Assembly (NCBI RefSeq): GCF_030296935.1
Contig: NZ_AP028032.1
Coordinates: 3,286,001 to 3,350,000 of the forward strand
Length of the DNA: 64,000 nt
Reading direction: 5' to 3'
Origin: Coprobacter fastidiosus
Lineage (GTDB): Bacteria > Bacteroidota > Bacteroidia > Bacteroidales > Coprobacteraceae
Positions 8,082 to 56,964 of this stretch are shown in pieces. Position 1 is the first letter of the stretch, and every line of letters starts with the position of its first letter. The notes under the pieces are model-generated. The model ran no database searches. It had not been told where the DNA came from and saw only the letters and a list, made by a program, of their open reading frames with translations. Made by a program: the position numbers and the translations under genes.

Positions 8082-8093
8082 TAGAAACCGATC

Positions 8094-8576: not shown

Positions 8577-8600
8577 GTATAAATTAAAAATGTAAATTTT

Positions 8601-9575: not shown

Positions 9576-9601
9576 GAAAATATTTAATATAGAATATTAG
9601 T

Positions 9602-9660
9602 GAGGTGCATTTCAAAAGTCGGACGTAAGACTTTTGAGATGCACTTCGTTTTTTATTTTT
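9602..9660 (+). terminator. Terminator after floA
   Basis: A 19-bp stem with one mismatch per side (9602-9620 with 9629-9647) and an 8-base loop is followed by GTTTTTTATTTTT. Confidence 0.9.
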
Positions 9661-9955
9661 AACCGTACAACATGTTGATGTGTGGTTTGATGTGTAGAAT
9701 TTATCTACAAATATGTGGAGTGGTATCAATATCGTATATTTTCTTATCTTGAAATTATTTATCTGATAATCATTTATTTATTATTCTTTTCTTTATAAGG
9801 TATCATTCTTGTAGTATAATTGGTAGACAGTTTATAGATATTGTGTTGCATTTAATTTTTAGAGTAAAATAAATAAGTGCAAGTGAAGGGTTCGTATCTA
9901 TTTTATACTTACATTTGTAATATAATGAGGATAAAACGATCAAATTGTTACGATT
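9661..9955. other. Intergenic region before the rsmI operon
   Basis: About 295 AT-rich bases contain no ORF I can support. The only signal is a -7 element at 9910-9917 near the right end. Confidence 0.5.
9910..9917 (+). promoter_or_regulatory. -7 element (TACATTTG) for the 9956-12211 operon
   Basis: An exact TAnnTTTG match lies 38 bases before the first ATG of the operon. Confidence 0.5.
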
Positions 9956-10618
9956 ATGTATATGGAACAGATTTTTCGGACTCTGCAGGAATTGGAGGAA
10001 CTGCTGAAACTAATAGATAAAAGTTCTCCGGAAGTTCCTGATATCTTATATAAACTGGCGGTAGAAAAGGCAGAGGCCGTTACCGAAAAAGTAAAAGGTT
10101 TACCAAGTGTGAATTCTGGTATTCCTGAAGATAAGATGGTGTCCGGTAATGATAGTGAGGATGTTATTGTTGATACATGCGCTTGCGGCGGAGAAAAGCG
10201 CATGGAAACAGAAGAACCGGAGACATCGGCGACTCGATCTGATGAGAAGAGTTTTCAAGAAAAGAAGGTTGAACTTGTGCAAGATTCTTTAATGATGGAA
10301 CAAAATTCGTTGGATTTTGTTGTTACAGGTGGGATGGAAGAGTCTTGTCCCGAGTCTGAAAATCTGAGTGCAGTTGAAAAAGAGAGAGAGTTGAAAGATA
10401 TTCGTAAGTTGATGAGTTTGAATGATAAATTCCGTTTTAGACGTGAGTTATTTGTCAACAGCGATGAGGTGATGAATAATACTCTTGAGGCGTTGAATGA
10501 AATTTCTTCTTTTGAAGAATCGGTCGCTTTTCTTCAGGATCAGTTTGGCTGGGATATAGAAAATAATGAGCCGGCTGTAGAATTTTTTAATATTTTGGAG
10601 AAACGTTTTACTAATTGA
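9956..10618 (+). CDS. Uncharacterised acidic protein (220 aa) upstream of rsmI
   Basis: I do not recognise a named family. The N-terminal ~45 residues are helical (EQIFRTLQELEELLKLID). The middle (about 45-140) is low-complexity and acidic. The last ~70 residues (from LMSLNDKFRFRRELF) look like the conserved core: a compact helical domain ending EPAVEFFNILEKRF. There is no signal peptide or membrane segment, so it is probably cytoplasmic. Two in-frame ATGs (9956 and 9962) are possible. The stop is 7 bases before rsmI, so it is probably co-transcribed with it and with the lipoprotein gene. Confidence 0.7.
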   Translation: MYMEQIFRTLQELEELLKLIDKSSPEVPDILYKLAVEKAEAVTEKVKGLPSVNSGIPEDKMVSGNDSEDVIVDTCACGGEKRMETEEPETSATRSDEKSFQEKKVELVQDSLMMEQNSLDFVVTGGMEESCPESENLSAVEKERELKDIRKLMSLNDKFRFRRELFVNSDEVMNNTLEALNEISSFEESVAFLQDQFGWDIENNEPAVEFFNILEKRFTN

Positions 10619-10625
10619 TATTAGC

Positions 10626-11321
10626 ATGGCAAAGCTCTATGTAGTTCCTACCCCGGTGGGAAATCTTGAAGATATGACGATGAGAGCGATCAGAGTATTG
10701 AAAGAAGCGGATTGTGTTTTAGCAGAAGATACCCGTACAAGTGGTATTTTGATGAAACATTTTGATATAAAAACCCGTATGCAGTCGCATCATAAATTCA
10801 ACGAGCATAAAACGGTAGAAGGACTTGTTGCCCGATTACAAGGGGGTGAAAATATAGCACTCATATCGGATGCCGGTACTCCTGCAATTTCTGATCCCGG
10901 TTTTTTATTGGTTCGGGAATGTCGGAAAGCAGGAATCGATGTAGAATGTTTACCGGGTGCGACAGCATTTGTTCCGGCTTTGGTTGCTTCAGGACTACCG
11001 AATGACAGATTTTGTTTTGAAGGCTTTTTGCCTCAGAAAAAAGGTCGTTCTACACGTTTGTCCGAATTGGCGAACGAAACGCGTACGATGATTTTTTATG
11101 AATCTCCTTTTCGCTTGTTGAAGACATTAATTCAGTTTGCTGAAGTATTCGGTGCAGATAGAGATGCTTCGGTAAGCCGGGAAATATCGAAGATCCATGA
11201 AGAAACTGTTCGTGGAACATTATCGGAAATTATTGCTCATTTTACTGAAAGAGAGCCGAAAGGTGAATTTGTAATTGTGGTAGGCGGTCTTCCGGGTAAA
11301 ACAAGATATGTAGAAATCTAA
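10626..11321 (+). CDS. rsmI: 16S rRNA 2'-O-ribose C1402 methyltransferase RsmI
   Basis: RsmI uses S-adenosylmethionine to methylate the ribose of C1402 in 16S rRNA. The 231-residue protein shows the family motifs VPTPVGNLEDMTMRAIRVL at the N-terminus, AEDTRTS at about 34-40, ISDAGTPAISDPG near 79-91 and LPGATAFVPALVASGL near 109-124. It ends in the GEFVIVV strand of the tetrapyrrole-methylase fold. It is shorter than E. coli RsmI (about 286 residues), lacking most of its C-terminal extension, as is usual in Bacteroidetes. It sits between an uncharacterised gene and a lipoprotein gene in one operon. Confidence 0.95.
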   Translation: MAKLYVVPTPVGNLEDMTMRAIRVLKEADCVLAEDTRTSGILMKHFDIKTRMQSHHKFNEHKTVEGLVARLQGGENIALISDAGTPAISDPGFLLVRECRKAGIDVECLPGATAFVPALVASGLPNDRFCFEGFLPQKKGRSTRLSELANETRTMIFYESPFRLLKTLIQFAEVFGADRDASVSREISKIHEETVRGTLSEIIAHFTEREPKGEFVIVVGGLPGKTRYVEI

Positions 11322-11332
11322 AAGAAAAAGTT

Positions 11333-12211
11333 ATGAAAAAGTTTTTTTTGACAGTTGCCGTAATAGCTTCGACATGTTTGATTTCTTGCCAAGGAGGCGG
11401 AAAAGAGGTTCAGAGGCTGAAGCAAGAAAATGATTCTTTGATGCAGGTCAATGTCCAGACAAAAGCGGATTTTGAAGAAATGTTGCAATTGATGAATGAA
11501 GTCGAGGATGGATTCCGTCAAATGAAAGAAGCGGAAAATTATCTTATCGTGCAACAAAATGCAACGGGTGATGTAGATAAAACGACTCGGGAGAAATTAA
11601 AGTCGGATATGCAATTAGTTGCCCAGACTTTGAAAGAAAATAAAGAAAAATTGGCGCAGTTGCAAAGTCAGTTGAAAAACAGTAAATATCAGTCTTCTCA
11701 GTTAAAACAAACTGTAGATCGGTTGTCTGCAGAAATAGAGAGCAAGACGGCTATGATTACTTCATTGCAGGAAGATCTGGCAAAACGGGATATTCGTATT
11801 AAAGAACTCGATGATGCTGTTTCAGATCTTTCGGGTAAGGTGACAGATCTTTCTCAAGAAACCGAAGAACAAAAAAATACGATTTCTACTCAGGATAAAG
11901 AATTGAATACTGTATTTTATGTATTTGGAACTACCAAGGAGTTGAAAGAACAGAAGATTCTTTCCGGTGGTGGTTTGTTTAAGGCAAAAGAGGTGATGAA
12001 AGGGGATTTTAACAAGGATTATTTTACTAAAGCCGATTTGCGGACGTTAAAAGAGATTCCTCTTGAAATGAAAAAAGCAAAGATTCTAACCAATCATCCC
12101 GAAGGCTCTTATTCTCTGGTAAAAAACGATAAAGGACTTTTGACATTAGTGATTAGCGATCCTCAAAATTTCTGGAGCTTATCTAAATATTTAGTAGTAA
12201 ATGTAGATTGA
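11333..12211 (+). CDS. Coiled-coil lipoprotein resembling Cbp1-type collagen-binding adhesins
   Basis: The 292-residue protein has a lipoprotein signal peptide with lipobox LISC (Cys19). A long heptad-rich coiled coil follows (about 25-190; examples VQRLKQENDSLMQVN and TAMITSLQEDLAKRDIRIKE, the latter within a Q/K/E-rich stretch). A compact conserved C-terminal domain begins near NTVFYVFGTTKELKEQ and ends WSLSKYLVVNVD. This plan matches the Bacteroides family labelled Cbp1-like collagen-binding glycoprotein adhesin. The family match is from memory of sequence patterns. Collagen binding cannot be seen in the sequence, and a structural envelope role is equally plausible. It is the last gene before a terminator. 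Confidence 0.75.
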   Translation: MKKFFLTVAVIASTCLISCQGGGKEVQRLKQENDSLMQVNVQTKADFEEMLQLMNEVEDGFRQMKEAENYLIVQQNATGDVDKTTREKLKSDMQLVAQTLKENKEKLAQLQSQLKNSKYQSSQLKQTVDRLSAEIESKTAMITSLQEDLAKRDIRIKELDDAVSDLSGKVTDLSQETEEQKNTISTQDKELNTVFYVFGTTKELKEQKILSGGGLFKAKEVMKGDFNKDYFTKADLRTLKEIPLEMKKAKILTNHPEGSYSLVKNDKGLLTLVISDPQNFWSLSKYLVVNVD

Positions 12212-41779: not shown

Positions 41780-43739
41780 ATGAAACACACATCACTAAAA
41801 AGCCTTTTGTTTCTTTTTGTTTTTGTCTTAACCGTATTACCTGTATTTGCAGGTGGACAATCATATTATTGTTATTCTCCGGATGACATCATTCAAATTC
41901 GAAAATCTGCGCAGACTTCATGGGGGAGGAAGATTCTTGACCGGATTAAAACGGATATAGCTGAACGCCGTTCCCATGATCTTACAGTTCCCGTTGTCGA
42001 AGGAGGACATATTCATCATTATTATTGTGATAAAGACGGTCAGCGGTTGACTTTTGACTGGGATAAGCCTCATGCGCACTATTGCTCGGCTTGTAAAACG
42101 ACTTATACCCATGTAAACCGTTTCGATTGGGCTTGGATTTATATGGTACACCGTAAAAATCAAGAGTATCTGCAAGCTTGTATGTATGCTTATATGGCTA
42201 CGGGAGATTTGCTGTATGTCAATTATATCAAAGATATGTTGCTCGATTATGCATCGAAATATGCAGCATATAAAGAGTATAATGCTGCTCGGGTTATTAG
42301 TGACAAACATAGCGGCAAGGCTTTTGCGCAAAGTTTAGATGAAGCGACTTGGGCTACCTATGCACTTCCGTCCTACACGGTTATAAAGAAATATCTGACA
42401 CAAGAAGAGATCGGTAAGATAGAAAGCGGACTTTTGCGTCCTTGCGCTGAATTATTGCTTAATCGCCCTGCCGGGGCAAATTGGCAGATGTGGCATAATA
42501 GCGGTCTTGCGGTTTTGGGAGTTGCTTTAGAGAATGACTCTATTATCGACGTTGCTATGAATGATCCGGTAAGGGGATATTATGCTTTGATGAAAAAGCA
42601 TTTGAAACCCGACGGGTGGATAGATGAAGGTTCTCCTAATTATCATTATTTCCCGTTACAAGCTTTAATTCATACGGCAGATGTCATGCGCTGTCGTGGA
42701 ATAAATTTGTATAATGAGGATATGAGGAAGATGTTTGTTGCTCCGATTAAGGGAACTTACCCCGATTTAAGCTATCCTGCACATAGTGACGGTTGGTATG
42801 GTGCGAGTGTTTTGAGTGAGTTGCCTATTCATGAACTGGCTTTCGCCCGTTTAAAAGACCCGGTTATTGAAACTGTCTTGGAACATGCTTACGGAATGAC
42901 AGATCGAACGGCATATGAATCGTTGCTTACGGGGCAGGATATAAAGCCTGTTAAAGAACCGATGATACAACCGAGTTATTGTTACCCGCAATCCGGATTT
43001 CTTTGTTTGCGAAGCGGAGCTGTTTCTTCGGTATTAAAATTCGGTGGTCAGGGAATAGGGCACGGACATCCCGATAAATTATCTATAACGATACATAACG
43101 GAGAAAAAGAACTGATTTCTGATTTCGGTACGTGTGCTTACGGACTTAAATTGTATTTAGATTGGTATCGAAACTCGTTGCCTCATGATCATGGTAACCG
43201 TAGATTATAAGGACCAGAATCGCAAGGCTTTAGGAAAATTGATCAGCTATGAGGCTACTCCGAACGGAGGTCGGGCAGAAGCTGAGTGTACGACAGCTTA
43301 TTCAGGAGTGAGAATGTTACGGAAGATGAATCTGGAGGGAAATATCTTGGACGATACGTTTGATTGTGCTTCAGATTCTGTACATGTGTATGAGTATGTA
43401 CTTTTATTCAATGAAAAGCCTGTGTTTAAAGCCGGAAAGGGACAGTCTGTCGTGTTGGATGAGTCGAAAGTACATTCGCGGATTAAAAATGTAAAGAAAT
43501 ATAAAGTCGGTAAAAAAGTTTCATTTAAAACTCCTTCGGGAGATCTGCTCTTGAAGTTATCGGAAGCGCCGGTTAAGGAGCTGTTGGTTGGTGAAGCTCC
43601 CGGAATACCTGCGTTGAAACTTGCAGAAGAGGGAACAGGAGCTCAGTTATGTTATCCTGTCATTGTTCGTTTACAAGGATCGAAGAATATGCGGATAAGT
43701 GCGAGATGGACGATATTTAATGCGAATACTAATAAATAA
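41780..43739 (+). pseudogene. Heparinase II/III-like polysaccharide lyase, broken by a +1 frameshift
   Basis: Two adjacent frames together make one secreted lyase-like protein. The first (41780-43210) has a signal peptide, an alpha-helical toroid half (LDEATWATYALPSY, IDEGSPNYHYFPLQALIH) and GQGIGHGHPDKLSITI. The second (43185-43739) supplies the C-terminal beta domain. The frame changes near 43194-43202 at CATGATCATGGTAACC: removing one G would read ...HDHVTVDYKDQ, matching the HNxVxVD-type motif expected after WYRNSLP. The family resembles PL12/15/17/21 lyases; exact family and substrate are not determinable. As sequenced the protein is truncated, so it is a recent pseudogene or a sequencing error. 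It precedes the Asp-loop gene by 8 bases. Confidence 0.8.
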
Positions 43740-43747
43740 CACACACA

Positions 43748-45514
43748 ATGAAAAAATGTAAATTTATTTATCTGGCAATGTTGGGAGTTTTTGCTGTTTC
43801 TACAGCACAGGCTTTGCCGTATGACCAGAAGTACTGGAATCAGAAATTACAGATCGAACCGTTTCGTCTGCCTTTGCCTCCGGTAGGTTATCAGGTAGAG
43901 TATATCGATTTAAATGGAGATGGAAAGCCTGACGCGATTAAATCCGTTACAGTAAACGATACTCCTATTCTTTGGTTAGATGACGACGGTAACATGAAAG
44001 AAGGGGATATTGAGGGAGATATGATCAATGATTGTTTGTTGATTGACCGTAATAAAGATGGAATTTATGGTGGACAAGGGGACTTGATTATCGATTGGGT
44101 CGATACGGATGATGACGGTAAAGCAGATATGCAGATCGTAATCGAATATCCGAAAAAAAATACCGGAGAAGTCTGGCCGAACGGGCATTATATGATTATG
44201 CGTGATTTGGATAAAGATAATATTTTCAATTATATTAATTGGAATGATTTTAGTTTACGCTGTTGGGATAAAAACGGAGTTTGCGATTTTTATGAAGATT
44301 ATAGCGGTCAGACGATGTTCATGAAAATTCATACATCTACTTATGACATTAAAGATTTACGTTTGAATTGGGAAAATCCGTTTTTGTTTTATGATGAAGA
44401 TGGCGATGGTCTGACCGAAATGGCCATACGGTTTGTCGATTCTCCTAAAATAAAAGATAGAAGCAAACCTTCGAATAGTTATGTAAACCGTCAGTTGGAA
44501 GGACGTATCGATTGGGTTTCTATGGCTGTCGATTTAGATAACGACAATGCTCCTGGTAACGAATTTGATTTTGATTTTACAATAGGTTTCCAGGGTAAAG
44601 GTTTTGATTATACCGATCAGGTACATAAAGTTAATAATTTGCGAGGCATGCCTGAGGCGGATAAATTTTTCATGGATCCTCGTTACCGTCAATTGACAGA
44701 ATTTTTGTATCCCGACCATAAAAGTGCTAAAGAGATGATCTTTAAAAGAGGAGAGTGGTCGAGAGTCAATTTTGTATATGACGAGGACGATGATTGCGGA
44801 CGTTGGGAGCGAGTAGAATTTTATGATCCGTTAGATCCGTTCAAAATCGGCTGGAAAAATGGCGGTATTGATAATAATAAACAGTCTGATGCTGCCGGAG
44901 ACCGGGGAGAATGGGATATGGATAATTCGGGAAAAGGTAAATTATATGTAGGTAAGTTCGACGGTCGTTTACATTTATATGGAGCTGAATGGGGTTGCTG
45001 GCGCATAGACCAGAATGCCAATTATTATCAAGGCTGGGATCGTATGTGGATGGGTATGGACCGGCAGCCCGGAAAATTCGGTACTGTAAAATATACCGAT
45101 AAAGATGACAACGGCTTTTTCGATTATATCGAATATGATCTTGACGGAGATAAAAAGTTCGAGATGACGATAGATTTAAAGGCACTGGGGCTGGATGATC
45201 GCTGTGAGTTGATTGATATTTCTACATTCAAATATAAAGATTATACTTCTATGATGAAGAAAATGTCTAAGTCGATGTGGAAAAATGCAATGACTGCCGT
45301 TCAAGTTGCGCATAAATATAATGTACAGACATTGTGGTATGCTAAATTGATGCAGGCGCTTTCTGTCCGTCAGCAATACAATAACGGTTATTGGTTGCAG
45401 TTCTATATCTATAAAGATCTTGAACACACTTTTATGCAGAAAGGAGATCAGGAAAAATTAAAACAGTTGACTGTTGCATATTATTCGGGAAATTGGAAAT
45501 CGATGCTGAAATAA
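43748..45514 (+). CDS. Secreted Asp-rich calcium-loop repeat protein (588 aa), function unknown
   Basis: After a signal peptide (residues ~1-22) the protein contains about a dozen DxDxDG-like acidic loops spread over its length. Examples are DLNGDGKPD (from residue 54), DRNKDGIYGGQGD, DTDDDGKAD, DEDGDGLTE, DLDNDNAPGNE, DKDDNGFFD and DLDGDKKFE. These look like EF-hand or thrombospondin-type-3-like calcium sites; calcium binding is inferred from the motif. The last ~110 residues are mainly helical and lack the loops. I see no catalytic motif. The gene follows the lyase after 8 bases and is closed by a terminator, so the two were probably one transcript. Confidence 0.85.
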   Translation: MKKCKFIYLAMLGVFAVSTAQALPYDQKYWNQKLQIEPFRLPLPPVGYQVEYIDLNGDGKPDAIKSVTVNDTPILWLDDDGNMKEGDIEGDMINDCLLIDRNKDGIYGGQGDLIIDWVDTDDDGKADMQIVIEYPKKNTGEVWPNGHYMIMRDLDKDNIFNYINWNDFSLRCWDKNGVCDFYEDYSGQTMFMKIHTSTYDIKDLRLNWENPFLFYDEDGDGLTEMAIRFVDSPKIKDRSKPSNSYVNRQLEGRIDWVSMAVDLDNDNAPGNEFDFDFTIGFQGKGFDYTDQVHKVNNLRGMPEADKFFMDPRYRQLTEFLYPDHKSAKEMIFKRGEWSRVNFVYDEDDDCGRWERVEFYDPLDPFKIGWKNGGIDNNKQSDAAGDRGEWDMDNSGKGKLYVGKFDGRLHLYGAEWGCWRIDQNANYYQGWDRMWMGMDRQPGKFGTVKYTDKDDNGFFDYIEYDLDGDKKFEMTIDLKALGLDDRCELIDISTFKYKDYTSMMKKMSKSMWKNAMTAVQVAHKYNVQTLWYAKLMQALSVRQQYNNGYWLQFYIYKDLEHTFMQKGDQEKLKQLTVAYYSGNWKSMLK

Positions 45515-45542: not shown

Positions 45543-45593
45543 GAATATCCGTTGACAGGGGCAGAAAATCTTTGTCAGCGGATATTTTTTTTG
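45543..45593 (+). terminator. Terminator after the lyase/Asp-loop unit
   Basis: Arms 45543-45557 and 45573-45587 (AATATCCG...CGGATATT, one mismatch inside) are followed by a run of eight T. Confidence 0.9.
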
Positions 45594-45730: not shown

Positions 45731-46960
45731 ATGAAGAACAAGAATCGTTTATTTTTCGTGATTATAATGATCTTTCCGTTTATCACGATCTCTGCGAAAA
45801 ATACAAAATATAATTCATATAAGGGACTGATAATGGCAGGCTACCAAGGTTGGTTCAATGCTCCCGATGACGGTGCGGGACGGGGCTGGTATCATTATTC
45901 AGGACCGAAAGGTCGTTTCGAACCGGGATGTTGTACTATCGATATGTGGCCTGATGTACGGGAATATGAAAAAGTCTATAAGACGAAGTTTGTTTTTGAT
46001 GACGGTACTCCGGCTTACACATTCAGTTCACATGACCCTTCTACGGTAGATACCCATTTCCGTTGGATGAAAGAGTATGGTTTAAATGGAGTATTCATGC
46101 AACGATTTGTCAATGAAGTAAAAGGGAAGAGTGGGAAAATGCATTTTAATAAAGTGTTAGATTCTGCTGTTTCTTCTGCCCGAAAATATGACAGGGCGAT
46201 TTGCATAATGTATGATCTGAGCGGAATGAAAAAGGCTGATGTCGATTTTGTACTGTCGGATTTAGATGAGCTGGATAGTACTTATAAGTTTAAGAAAAGA
46301 AAAAAAGTGCCGACCTATCTTTTCCATAATAAAAAACCGTTGGTAGCTGTTTGGGGAGTGGGATTCCCCGGCCGTTCTTATGATGTAGAAGATGCTGCGA
46401 AGTTGGTAGAGGGAATTCAAAAACGGGGATACAGCGTTATGTTAGGGACTCCGGCGAGATGGCTTCCCAAAGAGGGGAAAAAGCCCTCTGCAGATCAGCT
46501 CAAGTTATTAGATCTAATAAAAAAATGTGATATCGTAATGCCTTGGTTTGTGGGATGGTATAATGATAAGGTATATCTGAATATGCAGCCGATTATAGCG
46601 GAACATTTAGATTGGTGTAATAAAAATGGGGTTGATTATGCACCATTGGCTTTTCCCGGTTTTTCTTGGAAAAATATGTACGGTCCTAATACTACTCAAA
46701 TACCGAGAAATAAAGGTGATTTTTTCTGGGCACAGTTATCCGGAGCTATTTCTATGGGTGCAGAGATGTTGTATATAGCTATGTTCGATGAAATAGACGA
46801 GGGAACTGCGATATTTAAATGCGCTACCCGTGTCCCGGAATCGTTTGTGCCGATAGAAGAGGGATTGCAAAGCGATCATTATTTATGGTTGGTAGGGGAA
46901 GCCGGGAAAATGTTGAGGAAAGAGATACCGTTGAGTATATCCCAACCTGTTAGAAAATAA
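45731..46960 (+). CDS. Secreted GH71/GH99-like glycoside hydrolase domain protein
   Basis: The 409-residue protein has a signal peptide and a TIM-barrel-type sequence that resembles the GH71/GH99-like proteins often annotated as xylosidase/arabinosidase in Bacteroides. Characteristic stretches are KGLIMAGYQGWFNAPDDG at the start, HFRWMKEYGLNGVFMQRF, KCDIVMPWFVGWYND and the near-C-terminal MLYIAMFDEIDEGTAIFK. GH99 enzymes act on alpha-mannoside linkages (endo-alpha-mannosidase); the present substrate is not certain. It opens a likely operon with GH92 (24 bases downstream) and GH2. Confidence 0.82.
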   Translation: MKNKNRLFFVIIMIFPFITISAKNTKYNSYKGLIMAGYQGWFNAPDDGAGRGWYHYSGPKGRFEPGCCTIDMWPDVREYEKVYKTKFVFDDGTPAYTFSSHDPSTVDTHFRWMKEYGLNGVFMQRFVNEVKGKSGKMHFNKVLDSAVSSARKYDRAICIMYDLSGMKKADVDFVLSDLDELDSTYKFKKRKKVPTYLFHNKKPLVAVWGVGFPGRSYDVEDAAKLVEGIQKRGYSVMLGTPARWLPKEGKKPSADQLKLLDLIKKCDIVMPWFVGWYNDKVYLNMQPIIAEHLDWCNKNGVDYAPLAFPGFSWKNMYGPNTTQIPRNKGDFFWAQLSGAISMGAEMLYIAMFDEIDEGTAIFKCATRVPESFVPIEEGLQSDHYLWLVGEAGKMLRKEIPLSISQPVRK

Positions 46961-46984: not shown

Positions 46985-49288
46985 ATGAAGAATATGAAAT
47001 TAATAGGGTGTCATCTGGCAGCAGTTATTGTTTTTTCAGGATTGTTTTTTTCTTGTTCGCAAACTCATGTTGTCAAAGAGTATGTAGATTATGTTAATGT
47101 ATTCATCGGGACAGGTGGGCACGGCCACACCTATCCCGGTGCTACGTTGCCTCACGGTATGGTGCAGTTGAGCCCTGATACGCGATTGTTCGGGTGGGAC
47201 GGCTGTTCCGGATATTATTATGCTGATAGCTCTATAATCGGGTTCAGTCATACGCATTTGAGCGGTACGGGAATCGGAGATTACGGGGACATACTGATGA
47301 TGCCTACTTCCGGAGAAAATAAATTTATGGTATCAGGAAGTGCGGAAGATCCTGATTCAGGCTATCGTTCTCGTTTTTCTCATAAAGAAGAAGAGGCTGT
47401 TCCGGGATATTACAAAGTTAGGTTGTCCGATTATGATATTACCGCTGAGTTGACTGCTGCCCTGAGAACAGGTTTTCATCGTTATACATATCCGGAAGGT
47501 AAAGCTGCCAATTTGATTATAGATATGGAGCCTACGATTCATGGTCATCAACATCCGGTTACGGAAATACGGATTATAAATGATTCTACTGTTTCGGGAA
47601 TGAAATATACGACGGGATGGGCAAAAAATCATTATGTTTATTTTTATGCAGAGTTTTCAAGACCATTTACTCATACGTTGTATTCGGGAGATACATTAAT
47701 TGAGGGAAATCTCGTGAAAGCGAAAACGGCAAAGGCGTTGTTGACTTTTATTCCTGAGGAGGCAAAAAAAGAGGTTCTGGTTAAAGTCGGCATTTCTTCT
47801 GTCGATTGTGAAGGTGCGAAGAAAAATATGAAGGCTGATATTTCGGGATGGGATTTTGATAAAACCGTAGCGGATGCCCGTAAAATATGGAATAACGAAC
47901 TTTCGGTTATCGATGTCAAGACCGATGATGCTGAACAAAGGGAAATTTTCTATACAGCCTTATATCATACGGCCATATCGCCTTGTATCGCTTCTGATGT
48001 TGACGGACGTTACCGGACAATGGGACACACGATCGTACAAGACACTTCTTATACGAATTATACTCTTTTTTCTTTGTGGGATACTTTCCGGGCATTGCAT
48101 CCGTTATATACGGTGATTCGTCCCGATATTAATCAGGCATTTATCCGGGCTTTCTTGAGAAAATACGATGAGAGCGGCGTACTTCCCAAATGGGAACTGG
48201 CTTCGAACGAAACCGGTACGATGATCGGTTATCATGCTGTATCGGTAATTGCCGATGCTTTTTTCAAGAATCAACGTAATTTTGACGTAAATAGAGCTTT
48301 GTCGGCATGTGTCCGTTCATCTACTTATGATACGACGGGCATTACACCTATGATGCCGGCTTCTATTGTTGCTCGTATTATGCCTTTGGAATTAAAGTAT
48401 AAAAACGAATTAGGTTATGTACCGGCCGATCGTTGCGGAAGATCGGTCTCGCAAGGTATAGAGTTTGCATATAATGACTGGCTGATCGCACAGATGGCAG
48501 AGGCTTTGGATCAGAAAGATATAGCTGATGCTTATACGAAAAGAGGAGAATATTGGAAAAACTACGTCGATCCTGAGACCCGTTTGATGAGAGGTCGCAA
48601 TATGAATGGTTCATGGGTAACGCCTTTTGATCCGAGAGCGACTTTTAAGGGTTCTTGCTATGTAGAGGGGAATGCGTGGCAGTGGAGTTGGTTTATTCCT
48701 CAAGATGTCCCCGGATTGATCGAAGAAATGGGAGGAAAGGATGCTTTTGTTGCCAAGTTGGATTCTATGTTTTCAATGTCCTCGGAGTTGACCGGAGATG
48801 CCGGTGCAGCTCTCGATGTTACAGGAATGATAGGACAATATGCACATGGAAATGAACCCAGTCATCATATCCCTTATCTTTATAATTATGTAGATGAAGC
48901 ATGGAAGACCCAGGCTTTGGTCGATTCTATTCTTTGTACTTTATATCACGATGATCCGGATGGAATTTCGGGAAATGAAGATTGTGGTCAAATGTCGGCT
49001 TGGTATGTCCTTAATTCCATGGGATTTTATTCTTTCTGTCCGGGTATTCCGGTTTATGAGATCGGCCGTCCGTTGTTTGACGAAGTTACGGTGCGATTGT
49101 CCGGGGATAAGACATTTGTAGTAAAAGCATTAAATAACAGTAAAGAAAATAAGTATGTCCAGTCTGTAAAATGGAACGGTTTACCGTTATCCGAACCTCG
49201 TTTTTCTCATCAAATGCTTGCCAGTGGGGGAGTATTGGAGTTTGAAATGGGGAAAGAACCGAATAAGGAATTATTTAAAACGTATTAA
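46985..49288 (+). CDS. GH92 alpha-mannosidase, lipoprotein
   Basis: GH92 enzymes are calcium-dependent exo-alpha-mannosidases, often alpha-1,2. This 767-residue protein has a lipobox ending FFSC (Cys24), so it is probably tethered at the cell surface or periplasm. Family signatures are VNVFIGTGGHGHTYPGATLPHG, GFSHTHLSGTGIGDYGD, EGNAWQWSWFIPQDV, GNEPSHHIPYLYNY and NEDCGQMSAWYVLNSMGFY. The length is normal. It lies 24 bases after the GH71/99-like gene and 10 bases before GH2. The exact linkage specificity cannot be read from sequence. Confidence 0.95.
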   Translation: MKNMKLIGCHLAAVIVFSGLFFSCSQTHVVKEYVDYVNVFIGTGGHGHTYPGATLPHGMVQLSPDTRLFGWDGCSGYYYADSSIIGFSHTHLSGTGIGDYGDILMMPTSGENKFMVSGSAEDPDSGYRSRFSHKEEEAVPGYYKVRLSDYDITAELTAALRTGFHRYTYPEGKAANLIIDMEPTIHGHQHPVTEIRIINDSTVSGMKYTTGWAKNHYVYFYAEFSRPFTHTLYSGDTLIEGNLVKAKTAKALLTFIPEEAKKEVLVKVGISSVDCEGAKKNMKADISGWDFDKTVADARKIWNNELSVIDVKTDDAEQREIFYTALYHTAISPCIASDVDGRYRTMGHTIVQDTSYTNYTLFSLWDTFRALHPLYTVIRPDINQAFIRAFLRKYDESGVLPKWELASNETGTMIGYHAVSVIADAFFKNQRNFDVNRALSACVRSSTYDTTGITPMMPASIVARIMPLELKYKNELGYVPADRCGRSVSQGIEFAYNDWLIAQMAEALDQKDIADAYTKRGEYWKNYVDPETRLMRGRNMNGSWVTPFDPRATFKGSCYVEGNAWQWSWFIPQDVPGLIEEMGGKDAFVAKLDSMFSMSSELTGDAGAALDVTGMIGQYAHGNEPSHHIPYLYNYVDEAWKTQALVDSILCTLYHDDPDGISGNEDCGQMSAWYVLNSMGFYSFCPGIPVYEIGRPLFDEVTVRLSGDKTFVVKALNNSKENKYVQSVKWNGLPLSEPRFSHQMLASGGVLEFEMGKEPNKELFKTY

Positions 49289-49298
49289 TTTGATTTAC

Positions 49299-52205
49299 AT
49301 GAGAGATACTATTGCAATTTTGAGTTTGACGGCAGCATTATTGACGGGAGGAGATTTGTTGTTTGCAAAGGATAAAGTCGTGTTTAATCGGGATTTTTCT
49401 CCTGCAGAAGGACTTGTGTCACCGCAAGAAAAACCGTATCGGCAAGAAATATGTTTGAACGGGTTGTGGGATTTTCAACCGGTAGCCGTGCCTCGTGATT
49501 GGAAGCAGGGGAATGGAGTTGCCCCCATATTGACAGAGCCTCGAGAGGGGCAGTGGGAACAAGTAAAAATAAAAATTCCGTCACCGTGGAATGTAAATGA
49601 TTGGGGCGGTGGAATAGAGACCGGAGAGGGTTCAAAGAATCCTTACGCTCCGAGTTCTGTTTATTATCCCTCATATCCATCCTCTTGGATACGAGAAAAA
49701 ATGGGGTGGTTACGCCGGGAGTTTTCGATACCTGCCGATTGGAAAAAAGATAATCGTCTAATACTTCATTTTGAAGCTGTTGCAGGAGAATGTGTTGTAA
49801 AGGTCAATGGTAAAGAAGTTTGTCGGAATTTTGACCAATATTTGCCGTTTGATGCGGATGTTACCGATTATATTGATTGGAATAAGCCGAATGAGTTGTT
49901 AGTAGGTGTACGCCATAATACTCTTTTCCAGAAATTTCATCCGGAATATAAAAAAATGAAAACAACTTATGCATTGGGTTCTAATACCGATAAGATCGTC
50001 GGTATTTGGCAAGATGTATTTTTGTGGGCTGTACCTGAAGTTCGGGTAACGGAAGCTTTTATAAAGCCTTGGGTAGATCGTGATGAATTGGAAATAGATG
50101 TAAATATAATCAATCAGTCTCGACAACTTAAAACTATTTTATTAGGAGGTGATGCTCGTGAGTGGATTAACAATGCCGGAAAAACGATTTTGGATGCTCC
50201 TGAGATTAAATGGACATTAGGACATACGGCATTGACGATAGATCCGGTATCTGTGACTTTAAAACCGGGAGAAACACAAAAAGTAACTTTGCAAACTAAA
50301 GTAGGAAATCGATTGAAACTTTGGTCACCCGAAACCCCTAATTTGTATATGCTTTCTTTGAAAATTTCAGATAAGAAACAAACGTATGATATTAAGGATA
50401 TTCGTTTCGGATGGCGTCAGTTCAAACTGTCGGGAACAGACTTTTTGTTGAACGGTAAGAAAATTCAGTGTGTCGGTGATATACAGCACCCTTTCGGTCC
50501 TTATATCTGTTCACGTCGTTTTGCTTGGGCATGGTTGCAGATGATTAAGGATTTTGGAGGGAATTCGGTACGTCCTCACGCACAGCCGTGGCCGCGTGTG
50601 TATTATGATTTGGCGGATGAGATGGGAATTATGGTATTGGATGAAACCGGATTGTTCGGAAGTTCTATCAATCTTAATTTTGAAGCACCTGAAGCTTGGG
50701 AACATTATGCGGAACATTTGGAACGTCTGATTCTTCGAGACAGAAATCACCCTTCTGTAATTGGTTGGAGTGTCGGTAATGAATTATTTGCTATTGCTCT
50801 TTTAAATAAACCGTCTAAAGAGGTGGCGAAAAAATGGGATGATAAAATTGTAGAACTTGCAGATCGTGTGCCGGCATGGGATCCGACGAGGGGTTTTATA
50901 ACTTGTGACGGAGACCGGGATTTAGACGGGCGATTGCCTGTGTGGAGTAAGCATTTCGGGCACGGGCTGAAATTGGATTTATTACCGGAGAAGAAAGATA
51001 AACCGATGATTGTCGGAGAATCGGGAGCCACCTATTATGGGAAACCTGATCAATTGTATCAGTTTGCAGGAGATAAGCCATATATTTCTTATTACGGACG
51101 TAATGAAGCTTTGGCAGTAGATGTATATCAGAATGTACAGAAAATGGCAAAACCGTTTTTGGCTTATTATTCACCGTCCGAAGTTTGTTGGTTCGGATTG
51201 GAACATCTGAATCTCGGTTATGGCGATTATTCCCGTTTACCAGATGGGCAGGACGGTGTATTTGCTGGAAAAGTTTATGAAGAGGGTAAGCCTGGATATC
51301 AATTTGAGCGCATTCCGCCTTATGTGACAACTTTTAATCCGGGAATCGATCCTTCATTGCCTCTCTATAAACCGTTGCCTATGTTTCATGCCTTAAAGGC
51401 TGCATTAGCAGATAAACCTTGCGAATGGGATCATTATACGGAGTTGAAAATTCCGAAACCCGCAGCTCTTCCTCAGCCGGTGCATTCCGAAGTATTTTTT
51501 ATCGGAGATAAAACCGGAGCATTGGCTGGTCATTTAAGAAAAACAGGGATAACGTTTTCTAAGAATAAAAAGTCTTCTGTGGTAATTGTTGATGGAGAGA
51601 ACATCGGTGACGATCAATTGAAGCAATTTGCCGCTGTTATGAAATCTGCTAAAAAATCCGGTCGTACGATTCTGATAATGACGGCCACTAAAGGTATTGA
51701 TTCGAAGATTTTACCGTTATTGCCTGCAAATATTGAAACGACAAATAGAACGGCGACGGCATTTAATCCCGGTGAAAGATCTGAATGGGGAGGATATTTT
51801 ACTGTCCCGGCACTTTATTTTTCAGAAATAGATAGTAAAGAACCCATCCTTAAACAGGGACTCTCAGGAGCTTTTGTCGATGAGGGAACTATCGTTTTCG
51901 ATGCCTCGGGAGTCGATTGGTCTCTCTTTAATCGGGCTCCGGAGAATAGGAAATGTGCACAAGTAGTATTATATGAAAAGCTACAGAAACCATCAGGGGT
52001 AGCAATGGTTACCTATCCTTTAGGAAAATCGGTGATAGCAGTTTCTTCTATAAACTATCTTGTCGATACAAAAGAGACTGCGGCTTTTTGGGAACGATTC
52101 TTTTCTGTGATGAAAATAGATTTGAATAAGGATAATGTACAGTCTGGAAAAAGTAAAAAGGTACAGCACGATTTATTGTTGGACGGACCTGTAGATAGTA
52201 AATAA
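49299..52205 (+). CDS. GH2 family beta-glycosidase
   Basis: From the ATG at 49299, 10 bases after the GH92 stop, the product is 968 residues with a signal peptide (IAILSLTAALLTGGDLLFA). The open frame extends 27 codons upstream into GH92, which I reject because the signal peptide begins at 49299. The sandwich domain (residues ~40-330) is followed by a TIM barrel with acid/base Glu495 in IGWSVGNELFA and nucleophile Glu574 in IVGESGATYYG. The family includes beta-galactosidases, beta-mannosidases and beta-glucuronidases; specificity is unknown. The C-terminal ~200 residues look like an added domain without a clear motif. Confidence 0.92.
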   Translation: MRDTIAILSLTAALLTGGDLLFAKDKVVFNRDFSPAEGLVSPQEKPYRQEICLNGLWDFQPVAVPRDWKQGNGVAPILTEPREGQWEQVKIKIPSPWNVNDWGGGIETGEGSKNPYAPSSVYYPSYPSSWIREKMGWLRREFSIPADWKKDNRLILHFEAVAGECVVKVNGKEVCRNFDQYLPFDADVTDYIDWNKPNELLVGVRHNTLFQKFHPEYKKMKTTYALGSNTDKIVGIWQDVFLWAVPEVRVTEAFIKPWVDRDELEIDVNIINQSRQLKTILLGGDAREWINNAGKTILDAPEIKWTLGHTALTIDPVSVTLKPGETQKVTLQTKVGNRLKLWSPETPNLYMLSLKISDKKQTYDIKDIRFGWRQFKLSGTDFLLNGKKIQCVGDIQHPFGPYICSRRFAWAWLQMIKDFGGNSVRPHAQPWPRVYYDLADEMGIMVLDETGLFGSSINLNFEAPEAWEHYAEHLERLILRDRNHPSVIGWSVGNELFAIALLNKPSKEVAKKWDDKIVELADRVPAWDPTRGFITCDGDRDLDGRLPVWSKHFGHGLKLDLLPEKKDKPMIVGESGATYYGKPDQLYQFAGDKPYISYYGRNEALAVDVYQNVQKMAKPFLAYYSPSEVCWFGLEHLNLGYGDYSRLPDGQDGVFAGKVYEEGKPGYQFERIPPYVTTFNPGIDPSLPLYKPLPMFHALKAALADKPCEWDHYTELKIPKPAALPQPVHSEVFFIGDKTGALAGHLRKTGITFSKNKKSSVVIVDGENIGDDQLKQFAAVMKSAKKSGRTILIMTATKGIDSKILPLLPANIETTNRTATAFNPGERSEWGGYFTVPALYFSEIDSKEPILKQGLSGAFVDEGTIVFDASGVDWSLFNRAPENRKCAQVVLYEKLQKPSGVAMVTYPLGKSVIAVSSINYLVDTKETAAFWERFFSVMKIDLNKDNVQSGKSKKVQHDLLLDGPVDSK

Positions 52206-52362: not shown

Positions 52363-52394
52363 TTGCAACAGGATTGTATCATTTTGTACTTTTG
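52363..52394 (+). promoter_or_regulatory. Promoter: TTG (-33) and TACTTTTG (-7) before the chorismatase-like gene
   Basis: A TTG at 52363-52365 and an exact TAnnTTTG at 52387-52394, 21 bases apart, form a good Bacteroidetes promoter. The gene's open frame reaches back to this TTG, which I therefore treat as promoter. Confidence 0.6.
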
Positions 52395-52446
52395 TATCAA
52401 AATTAAGCGTTGCAAAAAATATTGCGAAAAAATAAGAATAGCAGGA

Positions 52447-53595
52447 ATGAATGATTGTCGTTATATATGTCGCTCTTTAAGGGAAAGCCAGGCGGACTTT
52501 TCTGCCATGGTAAGGTCTTTATTGAATAGGTATCAACCGAAAAATGTCCCTGTCCGTCTGGTCTTTTTCGGAGACGTTACGGATAATGTCCGTTATCGGG
52601 AAGAGCTTGATATTATTCGAAAAGAAGCCGATATCCATTTTGGAGATAAACTCCCTGTAATTAGTTATGTAGCTCAGAAACCCTTGGACGGTAGCGGTTT
52701 GGTTATGGAAGCTCATGAATTGAAAATACTTCAAGGGGAGACGGTTGAATATAAATCGTTGTGGACAAATTTTTATATTACAGTGACATCCTCTCATGTG
52801 AAACATCTCTTTTTAGGAGGAGTAATGAGCGATAATTTAGACGAAAGTTTTTCCGTTCAATCTTACAATGTATTTGATATTGTCGAAAAGATATTGCAGA
52901 TAGAGAACATGCCTGTACATTCTATCGTCCGACAATGGAATTATATTGAACAGATTACGGCATTTGACGGAGAACATCAACATTATCAGGATTTTAATGA
53001 TGCACGAAGTTTTTTTTATAATTATTCACAATGGCCTGAAGGTTATCCTGCGGCAACAGGAATAGGAATGGCGTGTGGAGGAATTGTTGTCGATATCAAT
53101 GCGGTTTATGCGGATGACGCTTCTATAAAGATCGATGCAATAGATAATGGTTGGCAAGTCGCGGCACATGCTTATTCGCAAAATGTTCTATTCGGAGAGA
53201 AAGATCCTCGTTTTCAAAGTAAGACTACTCCTAAATTTGAACGTGCTAAACGGGTAAAGCAGGAAAATTATGAAATAGTTTATGTGTCGGGAACTGCAGC
53301 TATACGTGGAGAAGAAAGTCTTTTGGAAGTCGGTATTGAAAAGCAGACTCAAGCAACAATAGAAAATATCGATTATCTGATTTCAGAAGAAAATATTCGA
53401 AGGCAAGGTATTTCGTTTTTCGGGTCTTCTTATAGATTAAAAAGTTGCCGAGTATATCTGAAAGATATTTCTTTAATGGAAAATGCCCGAGTGATTGTTG
53501 AAAAGCTATATTCCGATGTTGAGTCTATTTATCTTTTAGCTGATGTGTGTCGGGATGAATTATTGATAGAAATAGAAGGAATCGCTTCTGTATGA
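52447..53595 (+). CDS. Chorismatase/RidA-fold protein (FkbO/Hyg5-like)
   Basis: From the ATG at 52447 the product is 382 residues without signal peptide. It contains motifs of the chorismatase branch of the YjgF/RidA fold: NYIEQITAFDGEHQHYQDFNDARSFF (region near residue 175), YPAATGIGMACGGIVVD and VYVSGTAAIRGEESLLEVG (region near residue 280). FkbO and Hyg5 hydrolyse or rearrange chorismate. Here the block after SGTAAI lacks the GHESRH-like residues I recall for true chorismatases, so the reaction may differ. It lies between glycosidase genes but has its own promoter; its role there is unknown. A two-domain RidA-like deaminase is the main alternative. Confidence 0.7.
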   Translation: MNDCRYICRSLRESQADFSAMVRSLLNRYQPKNVPVRLVFFGDVTDNVRYREELDIIRKEADIHFGDKLPVISYVAQKPLDGSGLVMEAHELKILQGETVEYKSLWTNFYITVTSSHVKHLFLGGVMSDNLDESFSVQSYNVFDIVEKILQIENMPVHSIVRQWNYIEQITAFDGEHQHYQDFNDARSFFYNYSQWPEGYPAATGIGMACGGIVVDINAVYADDASIKIDAIDNGWQVAAHAYSQNVLFGEKDPRFQSKTTPKFERAKRVKQENYEIVYVSGTAAIRGEESLLEVGIEKQTQATIENIDYLISEENIRRQGISFFGSSYRLKSCRVYLKDISLMENARVIVEKLYSDVESIYLLADVCRDELLIEIEGIASV

Positions 53596-53933
53596 TTGAT
53601 TTTGAATTGTAAAGTTTTCGCATAGTTAATAAAGTCTTCAAATTATTTTTAATTCCTTTTTATATCGAAAAACAATTTTTATATTTGATCTGTAATTAAA
53701 ATTCTTCGTAAGGTTAGAATCTTGAATAAGAACTTTATTACTGATCATTAGATGTTGATGTATTATTGGGTAGGTTATGAAAGGACCAGTAATGAACAGG
53801 ATGTCTCAGTTTCCCTTTTGAAGATGATATCAGGAATCTTTTTAGTTGGAGAATAAGTAACAGAGAGAAATAATGTTACTTTTTTAATTGGTGAATGAGT
53901 TCCTGTTGTCGGTCGAATAAATATGTTTTTAAT
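53596..53933. other. Intergenic region before GH95 with a candidate promoter
   Basis: About 340 AT-rich bases hold an exact -7 element (TATATTTG) at 53680-53687, roughly 250 bases before the gene. The rest shows no ORF or structure I can name, so the leader would be long if that promoter is used. Confidence 0.45.
53680..53687 (+). promoter_or_regulatory. -7 element (TATATTTG) upstream of GH95
   Basis: An exact TAnnTTTG match, but about 250 bases before the start codon, so its use is uncertain. Confidence 0.35.
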
Positions 53934-56900
53934 ATGAAATTTATCTATAAGATGAGAGGAATAAGTAGAATTTATTGGGGAATACTGTTGATATTCCTGT
54001 GTCCTTGGAAAACAGATGCTGCATCTTTTTCTGGTTTTCGTCAACCTGAAATGAAAGCTGTGTATAATAAACCGGCTAAAGTATGGGAAAGCGAAGCGCT
54101 TCCTATCGGTAACGGATATATGGGGGCTATGATTTTCGGCGATGTTTATCGGGATGTCATTCAAGTTAATGAGCATTCGTTATGGTCCGGTGGTCCGGGA
54201 GAGAATCCTGATTATGATGGGGGGCATTTGGGAACATCTGCAGAAAATAGAGCTAATTTGCAGAAAGTCAGGAGAGCTTTACAGCAGAAAATGAATGAAT
54301 TTTCTAAAAATGATGCTGCTCATTTTAATTCTACCGGAAAGTTGATTACCAAAGATTATGGTAATGAGGAAAAAGACGGAATAAAACCTCTCATCGAAAG
54401 TCTTCGCGGAGCTAAGAATAATTTTGGTTCGTATCAGACTTTAGGTAATATTGAAATAGCCTATAATTCATTGGTTATTCCGGATGTCATAAGATTTGAT
54501 AGTGATTGTGATAATATCAATAATTATGATCAGCGGGTGGATAAATTGTTTGACGGAAATCGTGATACGAAATGGTATGCTGATAAAGGGTTTCAACAGA
54601 AATTTCCCTGTTATGTTGCTTGGGAGTACGAGACGAAACAGAAAATAAAATCTTATAGTCTTACATCGGGAGATGATGTTCCGGATAGAGATCCCATATC
54701 GTGGAATTTTTATGGTTCAAATGATGGTAAAAGATATTTATTGATTGATAAACAGTCTAATATAAGTTTTGAGAGTCGTAAAAAAACTTTGAAGTTTCCG
54801 TTAAAAAGAGAAGTGAGTTATAAATTTTTTAAATTAGAGATTACAGGTGTTGCAGCCGGCAATATGACTACACCTCCGCAACTATCGGATATAGAGCTCG
54901 AATATGAACAATTAGATGAACCTTTAGAGCCGTATAGTGATTATGTGCGGATGCTTGATATAGATAATGCAGTACATTCGGTAACTTATAAGGAGAACGG
55001 AACGACGTTTACCCGTGAATGTTTTATGAGTTATCCGGATAATGTAATGGTAATGCGATTGAAGGCAGATAAAAAGGGTAAAATCTCTCGTACATTTGCG
55101 ATAACGTCCCTTCAGTCAAAAAAGCAAATATCTGCATCTGGAAATACAATAACGATGACGGGACAACCTGTTTTGCATAAGGAAAACGGATTGAAGTTTG
55201 CCCAGCAAGTAAAAGTGTTGAATAAAGGTGGGCATTCTGAAGTTGTCGGTAATAAAAAAATTCGAGTGAAAGATGCTGATGAAGTGATCTTGCTTATGTC
55301 TGCAGCAACGAATTATCAGCAGTCTATGGATGAAAAATTCGATTATTTCTCGGATGAAGATCCTCTGACGACCGTAAAACAGACGCTGATAGCGGCCAGA
55401 GTCGAAAACATACGAAGATTTACTCTCTTCGCATAAAAAGGATTATAAGGCATTGTATGACAGAATGAGTTTGAATTTGGGAAATATAACCGGAATGCCG
55501 ACTAAGACTACCGATATATTGTTGAAAGATTTTTACAAAGGCAATACTGTTGAAGAAAATCTATATACCGAAATGTTATATTATCAATTCGGACGATATT
55601 TGCTGATCGCTTCCTCTCGGGAGAACTCTTTGCCGGCGAATTTACAAGGTGTATGGGGCGAAAGATTGTCCAATCCGTGGAATGCCGATTATCATACCAA
55701 TATTAACGTACAGATGAATTATTGGCCGGCACAGCAAACCAATTTAAGCCCTTGTCATATACCGTTGATTTCTTATATTAACAGTTTAGTTCCCAGAGGC
55801 AAGATAACAGCTCGGCACTATTATTGCAAACCTGATGGCGGTGATGTGCGTGGTTGGGTAACGCATCATGAAAATAATATATGGGGGAATACTGCTCCGG
55901 GAACGAGTTACGGGGCATTTCATTTTCCTGCCGGGGCAGCATGGATGTGTCAGGATATATGGGAGTATTATCAATTTAATTGTGACAAGAAATTTTTGGA
56001 ACAAAACTATAATACGCTTTTAGGCGCAGCCTTGTTTTGGGTGGATAACTTGTGGACGGATGAACGGGATGGAACGTTGGTCGCTAATCCGTCTCATTCT
56101 CCTGAACATGGCGAATATTCATTAGGCTGTTCTACGGTCCAGGCGATGATTGCCGAAATATTCGATATTGTAATTAAAGCGAGTGAGGATTTGGGAAAAG
56201 ATACGAAAGAGGTTGCCGAGATAAAGGCGGCGAAAAGTAAATTGGCAGGTCCTCAAATAGGATTAGGCGGACAGTTTATGGAGTGGAAAGACGAAGTAAC
56301 GAAAGATATAACCGGAGACGGGCAGCACAGACATGTCAATCATCTGTTTTGGTTGCATCCGGGATCACAGATTGTTGCCGGAAGAAGCGTACAGGAAGAT
56401 AAGTATGTGGAGGCAATGAAAAAAACTTTGGAAACAAGAGGTGATGGCGGTACGGGCTGGAGTAAAGCATGGAAGATTAATTTCTGGGCTCGTCTGAGAG
56501 ACGGTAACCGCGCTCATAAATTATTGAAAGAGGCGCTGACCCTTACATATACAGGTAATCCGGCTAATATCGGAGGAGTTTATCAGAATTTGTTCGATAC
56601 GCATCCGCCTTTCCAGATAGATGGAAATTTTGGAGCAACTTCGGGTATTGCGGAGATGTTGCTTCAAAGTCAAGGCGGTTATATAGAATTGCTTCCTGCC
56701 ATACCGGATGATTGGGCGAATGGAACATTCGAGGGGTTAAAAGCGAGAGGAAATTTTGAGATCGATGCCGAATGGAAAAACGGAGTTCTCGTTACGGCCG
56801 AGCTAACTTCTAATTCAGGCAAAGAATGCGTTATAAAATATCCTGACGCAAAAAATTTGATAGTTAAGTCGAAAAATGGAGATACTGTAGCAAAAAAAGT

Positions 56901-56964
56901 CATCGATAATGATAAAATATCATTTATTACAACAGCAGGTGCGGTATATGAAATTTGTAGATAA
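53934..56964 (+). pseudogene. GH95 alpha-L-fucosidase with inserted discoidin-like domain, broken by a +1 frameshift
   Basis: Two adjacent frames (to 55436, and 55453-56964) make one GH95 enzyme. Part one has a signal peptide and the N-terminal beta domain (PAKVWESEALPIGNGYMGAMIFG). An inserted F5/8-type-C-like domain (about residues 180-330; FDGNRDTKWYAD, FYGSNDGKRYLL, FFKLEITG) follows. Part two has all catalytic motifs: YHTNINVQMNYWPA (paired Asn), SPEHGEYSLGCS (acid Glu) and QIDGNFGATSGI (Asp). Removing one base near 55398 restores AAESKTYEDLLSSHKKDYKA-like sequence that bridges the parts, so a single-base insertion is likely. As sequenced the enzyme half has no signal peptide. The start at 53934 is chosen for the signal peptide; 53952 is an alternative. 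Confidence 0.85.

Follow-up and report, generated by a model that had tools for sequence, protein, structure and literature searches.

A family of secreted, Asp-rich loop proteins from glycan-degradation loci of Bacteroidota and its links to PL17-like lyases

The Asp-rich gene and its product

The 64,000-nucleotide stretch of the Coprobacter fastidiosus genome analyzed here (NCBI RefSeq assembly GCF_030296935.1, contig NZ_AP028032.1, positions 3,286,001 to 3,350,000 of the forward strand; hereafter the window) contains, at positions 43748-45514 of its forward strand, an open reading frame (ORF) with an ATG start, which encodes a protein of 588 amino acids (aa) with 12.6% Asp. The original prediction, made from the sequence of the window alone, had described this product as a secreted protein built of Asp-rich calcium-loop motifs and encoded beside a polysaccharide lyase gene, and this observation was confirmed as a whole. 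The strict motif DxDxDG occurs only twice, but [DN]x[DN]x[DN]G is present five times (mean 0.31 in 1000 shuffled sequences of the same composition, none of which reaches 5) and the relaxed motif Dx[DN]x[DN] has 11 occurrences against an average of 2.4 in the shuffled sequences (one of 1000 reaches 11), so that the earlier count of "about a dozen" loops holds if the relaxed motif is meant. The loops are moreover conserved in the family. The features of the gene and its product are listed below; for each loop the fraction gives the rows of a 79-row family alignment that keep its first three ligand positions, which ranges from 65 to 79 across all eleven loops.

43748..45514, +, Asp-rich protein with putative calcium loops, 588 aa (ORF; 79-row alignment; structural model with predicted local distance difference test (pLDDT) 92.0 and predicted template modelling score (pTM) 0.88)
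43748..43813, +, signal sequence, residues 1-22, ending in STAQA, without a lipobox Cys (sequence reading)
43907..43933, +, loop 1, residues 54-62, DLNGDGKPD, canonical nine-residue spacing, 74/79
43979..44008, +, loop 2, residues 78-87, DDDGNMKEGD, 78/79 (a bait motif of the scan, hence biased conservation)
44045..44083, +, loop 3, residues 100-112, DRNKDGIYGGQGD, 79/79
44102..44128, +, loop 4, residues 119-127, DTDDDGKAD, 65/79
44204..44218, +, loop 5, residues 153-157, DLDKD, 78/79
44324..44332, +, K193 and H195, candidate functional residues, 79/79 (kept in a homologue of 33% identity)
44393..44419, +, loop 6, residues 216-224, DEDGDGLTE, 79/79 (between model strands 209-215 and 225-230)
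44531..44569, +, loop 7, residues 262-274, DLDNDNAPGNEFD, 79/79
44780..44809, +, loop 8, residues 345-354, DEDDDCGRWE, 79/79 (partly ascertained by the scan motif; kept in a profile-found homologue)
44915..44962, +, loop 9, residues 390-405, DMDNSGKGKLYVGKFD, 79/79
45098..45124, +, loop 10, residues 451-459, DKDDNGFFD, 79/79
45137..45163, +, loop 11, residues 464-472, DLDGDKKFE, 79/79
45233..45505, +, C-terminal helical region, residues 496-586 (model helices 496-523, 528-531, 540-564, 568-580 and 583-586)
45544..45592, +, intrinsic terminator common to the lyase gene and the Asp-rich gene (hairpin with minimum free energy -29.5 kcal/mol, z -7.0, then a U-run)

The strong hairpin and U-run behind the Asp-rich gene bear out the shared terminator that had been proposed earlier; a consensus terminator scan reported none at 45544..45592.

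The signal sequence speaks to the location of the protein. According to a tally by our own regular expression, 75 of the 79 family members carry a plain signal sequence and one has no signal at all; the other three may have a lipobox, which is doubtful in two cases, whereas a lipobox was scored in 19 of 28 SusD proteins from the same loci and in seven of seven members of a small protein family (cluster 11). The general lack of a lipobox favors a soluble periplasmic or secreted protein over a surface lipoprotein of the type of SusD or the surface glycan-binding proteins, and the earlier suggestion of a glycan-binding surface protein is disfavored.

Family distribution, conservation and predicted fold

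A scan of GTDB contigs with the baits [YF]DEDDDC and W[IL]DDD[GDR][DN]M identified 164 stretches that encode a relative of the Asp-rich protein, mostly from Bacteroidota. The best 80 of these 164 stretches are the loci (labelled L) to which all locus counts below refer; they vary in length, and many end at contig ends. Nearly all are from Bacteroidota, with single records labelled KSB1, Opitutales (Verrucomicrobiota) and Thalassovita (Pseudomonadota), perhaps through misbinning, as all three come from metagenome bins. The alignment comprises 77 loci, L003 and the window, while L029 (partial) and L043 and L054 (no ORF match) were left out. Relatives were found in two of five genomes drawn from Coprobacteraceae (all of one genus), in 4 of 295 genomes of the order, in 3 of 395 genomes of the phylum and in 4 of 349 genomes of the family of genome G398 (one of them a 132-residue piece), in draws that partly overlap; the count for the order was taken after one chance match of the five listed had been discarded, namely that in G244 (L009, expectation value (E) 4.4e-5, 73 residues), where the protein, of about 800 aa, is unrelated. 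The gene is thus rare and patchily distributed, as are other components of glycan-use loci. There are two copies in the genome of the window and three in one relative.

Conservation is concentrated in the loops. In the 79 rows, Asp, Glu or Asn is kept at a mean of 99.0% in the 42 loop columns and at 69.2% in the 92 other columns of these residues (Mann-Whitney p 2e-13, indicative only, as the rows share ancestry), by which the family resembles calcium-loop proteins in general, with their conserved DxDxDG-type loops. Residues 76-83 and 344-350 owe part of their conservation to row selection, because they match the baits of the scan. Outside the acidic residues, conservation of at least 97% was found for 12 of 77 Arg/Lys/His, 20 of 81 aromatic and 15 of 46 Gly positions, versus 2 of 116 Ile/Leu/Val/Met positions. 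A set of invariant basic and aromatic residues comprises K193, H195, Y185, R228, Y288, R314, R352, R355, R386, H409, W76, W353 and W418, and the invariant R352, W353 and E354 fall inside loop 8. A homologue of 33% identity, found by profile and not by bait, keeps 56 of the 69 invariant residues, including the loop acids D54, D100, D153, D216, D262, D264, D266, D345, D347, D349, D390, D392, D405, D451 and D464 as well as K193, H195, Y185, R228, Y288, H293, R314, R352, R355, R386 and H409; D157 is among the residues it has lost.

A model from eight sequences was weak (pLDDT 51), and the model from the 79-row alignment (mean pLDDT 92.0) was used instead. It consists of a long series of beta-strands (residues 51-476) followed by the helices (496-586), with the loops joining strands or sitting at strand ends; loop 1, for instance, lies between strands 51-53 and 63-67 and loop 10 between strands 445-450 and 460-464. 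Loops that form no metal sites in a model had been named as a refutation of the original prediction; the loops were found at confident, strand-connecting positions, in a model that holds no ions. A Foldseek search with the whole chain, sheet and helical region together, against 350,542 PDB chains returned nothing at E 0.001 or better (best 3.2e-3, template modelling score 0.11), and a viral structure library gave no match at 0.001. In a second structural comparison the top rows were the CPAP G-box (4lzf: Z 6.8, root-mean-square deviation (rmsd) 4.7, 155 aligned residues) and OspA variants (mutants, Z about 6.5), both free-standing single-layer sheets that are not known to carry calcium loops; these scores, all below 8, lie within the tool's "common arrangement" range, and for the OspA rows the identity is 4-5% and the rmsd mostly 7-12. 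The families of the best Z rows were single-layer sheets and barrels, and neither lectins nor enzymes were prominent among these rows. When separate segments were compared by profile, high scores arose only where segments overlap by construction, and no internal repeat was seen.

Searches against known families were also negative, and the original prediction had recognized no catalytic domain. Pfam gave nothing above cut-off (best 14.1 bits, to an irrelevant model) and NCBIfam no match to E 1, so that a confident match to a characterized family, which had been named as another refutation of the original prediction, did not occur; among the Pfam and NCBIfam matches to E 1, there were neither Hepar_II_III_N/C or alginate-lyase nor EF-hand or dockerin models. 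A single-sequence search of PDB sequences found no credible match and the family-alignment profile none to E 10 (no PL11 sequence was compared directly), and a plasmid collection contained no match. The literature consulted, PMC9410043 included, held nothing recognizable as this family, which is no proof that it is unpublished; in the libraries searched the family appears to be without a name. We also considered as a possible relative FdlA, the fucoidan (sulfated fucoglucuronomannan) lyase of Flavobacterium, which likewise is a lyase of an acidic glycan. This candidate was dropped by description: the FdlA abstract gives a beta-helix, which the antiparallel-looking hairpins and the helical tail of our model do not suggest.

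The PL17-like lyase and candidate functions

The gene upstream of the Asp-rich gene encodes a heparinase II/III lyase related to polysaccharide lyase (PL) family 17, in the following arrangement:

41780..43739, +, PL17-like heparinase II/III lyase gene, broken by a frameshift into ORFs 41780-43210 and 43185-43739 (Pfam Hepar_II_III_C, Hepar_II_III_N and Alginate_lyase)

The two ORFs are in different frames and homologues read on through the junction, and thus what lies 8 bases upstream of the Asp-rich gene is the 3' part of a frameshifted lyase gene, a correction to the original prediction, whose distance stands. The frameshift is either an assembly error or a real mutation.

The two proteins are associated well beyond the window. 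In seven of the 78 loci with an ORF match (L012, L013, L014 from Bacteroides timonensis, L018, L023, L035 and L047; ORFs of 1188-1246 residues, that of L047 reaching the end of its contig) the Asp-rich half is fused at the N-terminal side of a PL17-like heparinase II/III lyase in a single chain. For the L012 fusion, a match to PL17 structures (9irq, E 3.6e-29) was obtained with the C-terminal half, while the Asp-rich protein, which shares a chain or a neighborhood with PL17 (oligoalginate lyase, AlgL17) in part of the family, differs from it by its beta-rich model and the lack of Hepar or alginate-lyase profiles. Mapped on the tree, the fusion label must have changed its state at least twice, which suggests that the two parts were fused or split more than once. 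In L017 (Bacteroides faecis), L020, L064, L067 and the window a separate lyase of the same subfamily adjoins the Asp-rich gene or is found no more than three genes from it. Co-occurrence with lyase genes, proposed earlier as a check, was seen in part of the loci: a Hepar-like gene was detected with hidden Markov models (HMM) near the Asp-rich gene in 15 of 80 loci and in the window (Pfam adds L041), and most loci showed none nearby. In the genome of the window there are four Hepar_II_III_C matches in 3.44 Mb, and each of the two Asp-rich copies has one such gene within about 6 kb; by our own arithmetic the chance of a match in a given 12-kb stretch is about 1-2%. The Asp-rich domain is also combined with another enzyme: in L049 (Maribacter; 8975-11692, 906 aa) the same chain carries a BD-FAE esterase domain ahead of it, and L050 has the same length and layout. 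The L049 fusion stands among several sulfatase-cluster genes and a GH120-like gene.

Comparison with a sister locus, L011 (91% identical), which at the corresponding site has no lyase or GH99 gene and no remnants of them, gives for the Asp-rich gene nonsynonymous (dN) and synonymous (dS) values of 0.049 and 1.11, a ratio of about 0.04, with the reservation that a dS near or above 1 approaches saturation; the ratio is about 0.07 for the adjacent GH92 and GH2 genes and 0.17 for a trypsin-TPR gene. To judge from these substitution ratios, the Asp-rich gene is under strong purifying selection in a sister genome without the lyase. At the second locus dN is 0.046 for the Asp-rich gene versus 0.107 for the lyase.

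We conclude that the Asp-rich protein probably takes part in degrading acidic glycans, alongside the PL17-like lyase but also where this lyase is missing. The members of the family are secreted and probably periplasmic, and they come from glycan-degradation loci; some eleven DxDxDG-type loops would link the strands of an extended beta-sheet, very probably with calcium as structural staples, and a helical region would close the C-terminus. The conservation of acidic, basic, aromatic and Gly residues is what one would expect if metal staples the fold and an acidic glycan is bound, and the set of invariant basic and aromatic residues most likely forms the glycan site, for a glycan that would contain uronic acid. 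We give about an even chance to the protein being an enzyme, a lyase or a hydrolase, which would cut the same glycan as the PL17-like lyase; this reading is favored because of the large size of the protein, its independence from the lyase, the strong constraint and the invariant basic and aromatic residues. The "new enzyme fold" of the original prediction would likewise be the best fit to the basic and aromatic conservation and to the absence of a match to known folds. A more specific version, which we regard as rather unlikely, is a new class of calcium-dependent polysaccharide lyases with a hitherto unseen extended beta-sheet fold and about eleven calcium loops, which would cleave uronic-acid glycans of plant or algal type and in Bacteroides would form two-lyase fusions. 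Several observations weigh against the enzyme. With a Hepar-like gene in so few loci the link to the lyase is not universal; many metal sites can also give high conservation by themselves; and the divergent homologue of 33% identity lacks R419, Y531, Y553 and W173. A further point, which cuts both ways, concerns L025 and L028, with a gene order that includes SusC, SusD, DUF4998 protein, Asp-rich gene, GH88 and BNR_4, where the HMM found no Hepar-like gene and the genes scanned singly gave no Hepar or PL8 profile. The substrates of GH88 enzymes are unsaturated uronates produced by lyases, and some lyase is therefore expected there, for which the Asp-rich and the BNR_4 proteins are candidates, but it could be the BNR_4 protein that feeds GH88.

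Of the alternatives, a non-catalytic module, calcium-stabilized and either detached or fused, which binds the glycan or presents the substrate to acidic-glycan lyases and esterases, is the next most likely, though on balance we doubt it. Its place before a lyase in some fusions and behind an esterase in others is as expected of accessory modules, and the extended single-layer sheet that the model resembles could be a binding platform, but about 590 aa is large for a module that usually stands alone and has no lipobox. The Asp-rich part is, besides, more similar than the catalytic lyase part in 51 of 55 pairs among the 11 loci that have both (means 58.5% and 48.8%), and in most shared-locus pairs its identity exceeds that of SusC, SusD, GH92, GH2, GH29, GH88 and SASA, the exceptions being the BNR_4 cluster and cluster 13, where the Asp-rich part is the more similar one in only 4 of 10 and 4 of 15 pairs, respectively. 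A dedicated subunit that folds, stabilizes or activates the PL17-like lyase would account for the fusions and the adjacency to this lyase subfamily, but we consider it improbable, as no such lyase lies near the majority of family members and the protein stays under purifying selection in L011; of the "calcium-bound partner" proposed earlier, the association thus survives for the fusions and for both copies in the window's genome, and not for the majority of loci or for the sister genome. About as improbable, in our opinion, is a known fold missed by the searches, either a divergent FG-GAP/integrin-type beta-propeller or a distant propeller lyase of family PL11, whose rhamnogalacturonan lyases have solved relatives. 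FG-GAP proteins also have DxDxDG-type loops between beta-strands, the DxDxDGxxD spacing of loops 1, 4, 6, 10 and 11 is that of FG-GAP/integrin loops, and FG-GAP_3 matches residues 36-63 (E 0.37); this match, however, reaches only 11.9 bits against a Pfam cut-off of 26.9, the loop spacing is irregular, and neither a repeat unit nor a Foldseek match at the threshold was found. The enzyme remains our preferred reading.

Many genes of the glycan-degradation loci of gut and marine Bacteroidota are still without an assigned function. No profile in two general libraries covers the Asp-rich family, which is widely scattered across the phylum, strongly conserved and linked by gene fusion to two classes of enzymes; the fusions are ready test proteins, and the neighboring genes give hints to the substrates. 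If catalytic, it would be a new family of acidic-glycan enzymes with an unusual metal-stabilized fold.

Neighboring genes and substrate hints

Downstream of the shared terminator the window encodes further glycoside hydrolases (GH):

45731..46960, +, GH99-like gene (Pfam Glyco_hydro_99, 32.6 bits, just below the cut-off of 33)
46985..49288, +, GH92 gene (Pfam E 1.3e-175)
49218..52205, +, GH2 gene (Pfam E 9.5e-18)

These are followed by a GH95-type fucosidase in two ORFs of different frames (53895-55436 with the N-terminal and 55453-56964 with the catalytic domain), so that with the lyase two nearby carbohydrate-enzyme genes of the window are disrupted. Between the GH2 and GH95 genes, positions 52363-53595 match the N-terminal part of FkbO/Hyg5-like chorismatases and Ribonuc_L-PSP. 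The set of GH92, GH99-like, GH2 and GH95 enzymes suggests that the glycan would contain mannose, fucose and uronic acid. The locus of the second Asp-rich copy in the same genome also holds GH30, GH2, sulfatase, GH88 and GH59 genes. A GH88 gene of this genome outside the window (G000:C1:2538240-2539334) has an internal TAA, due either to an assembly error or to decay, and is a third disrupted glycan-degradation gene.

In the other loci the neighbors of the Asp-rich genes are mostly carbohydrate enzymes, PL8 among them. The commonest of 134 neighbors, picked by hand from 175 listed with near-copies (e.g. L014, L031, L032 and L050) and some other genes omitted, are GH2, GH88 (5), BNR_4 (6), DUF2264, DUF4838, GH92, sulfatases and SASA; the tallies of neighbor families cover the first 25 of 98 and the first 25 of 65 families. 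Directly upstream of the divergent Asp-rich homologue in L096 is a gene (7626-9317) for a 564-aa protein with no Pfam match to E 0.001. In L016 (9962-11704, Bacteroides faecalis), with no glycan enzymes recognized adjacent, the Asp-rich gene stands beside a large gene, the start of which is typical of hybrid two-component regulators.
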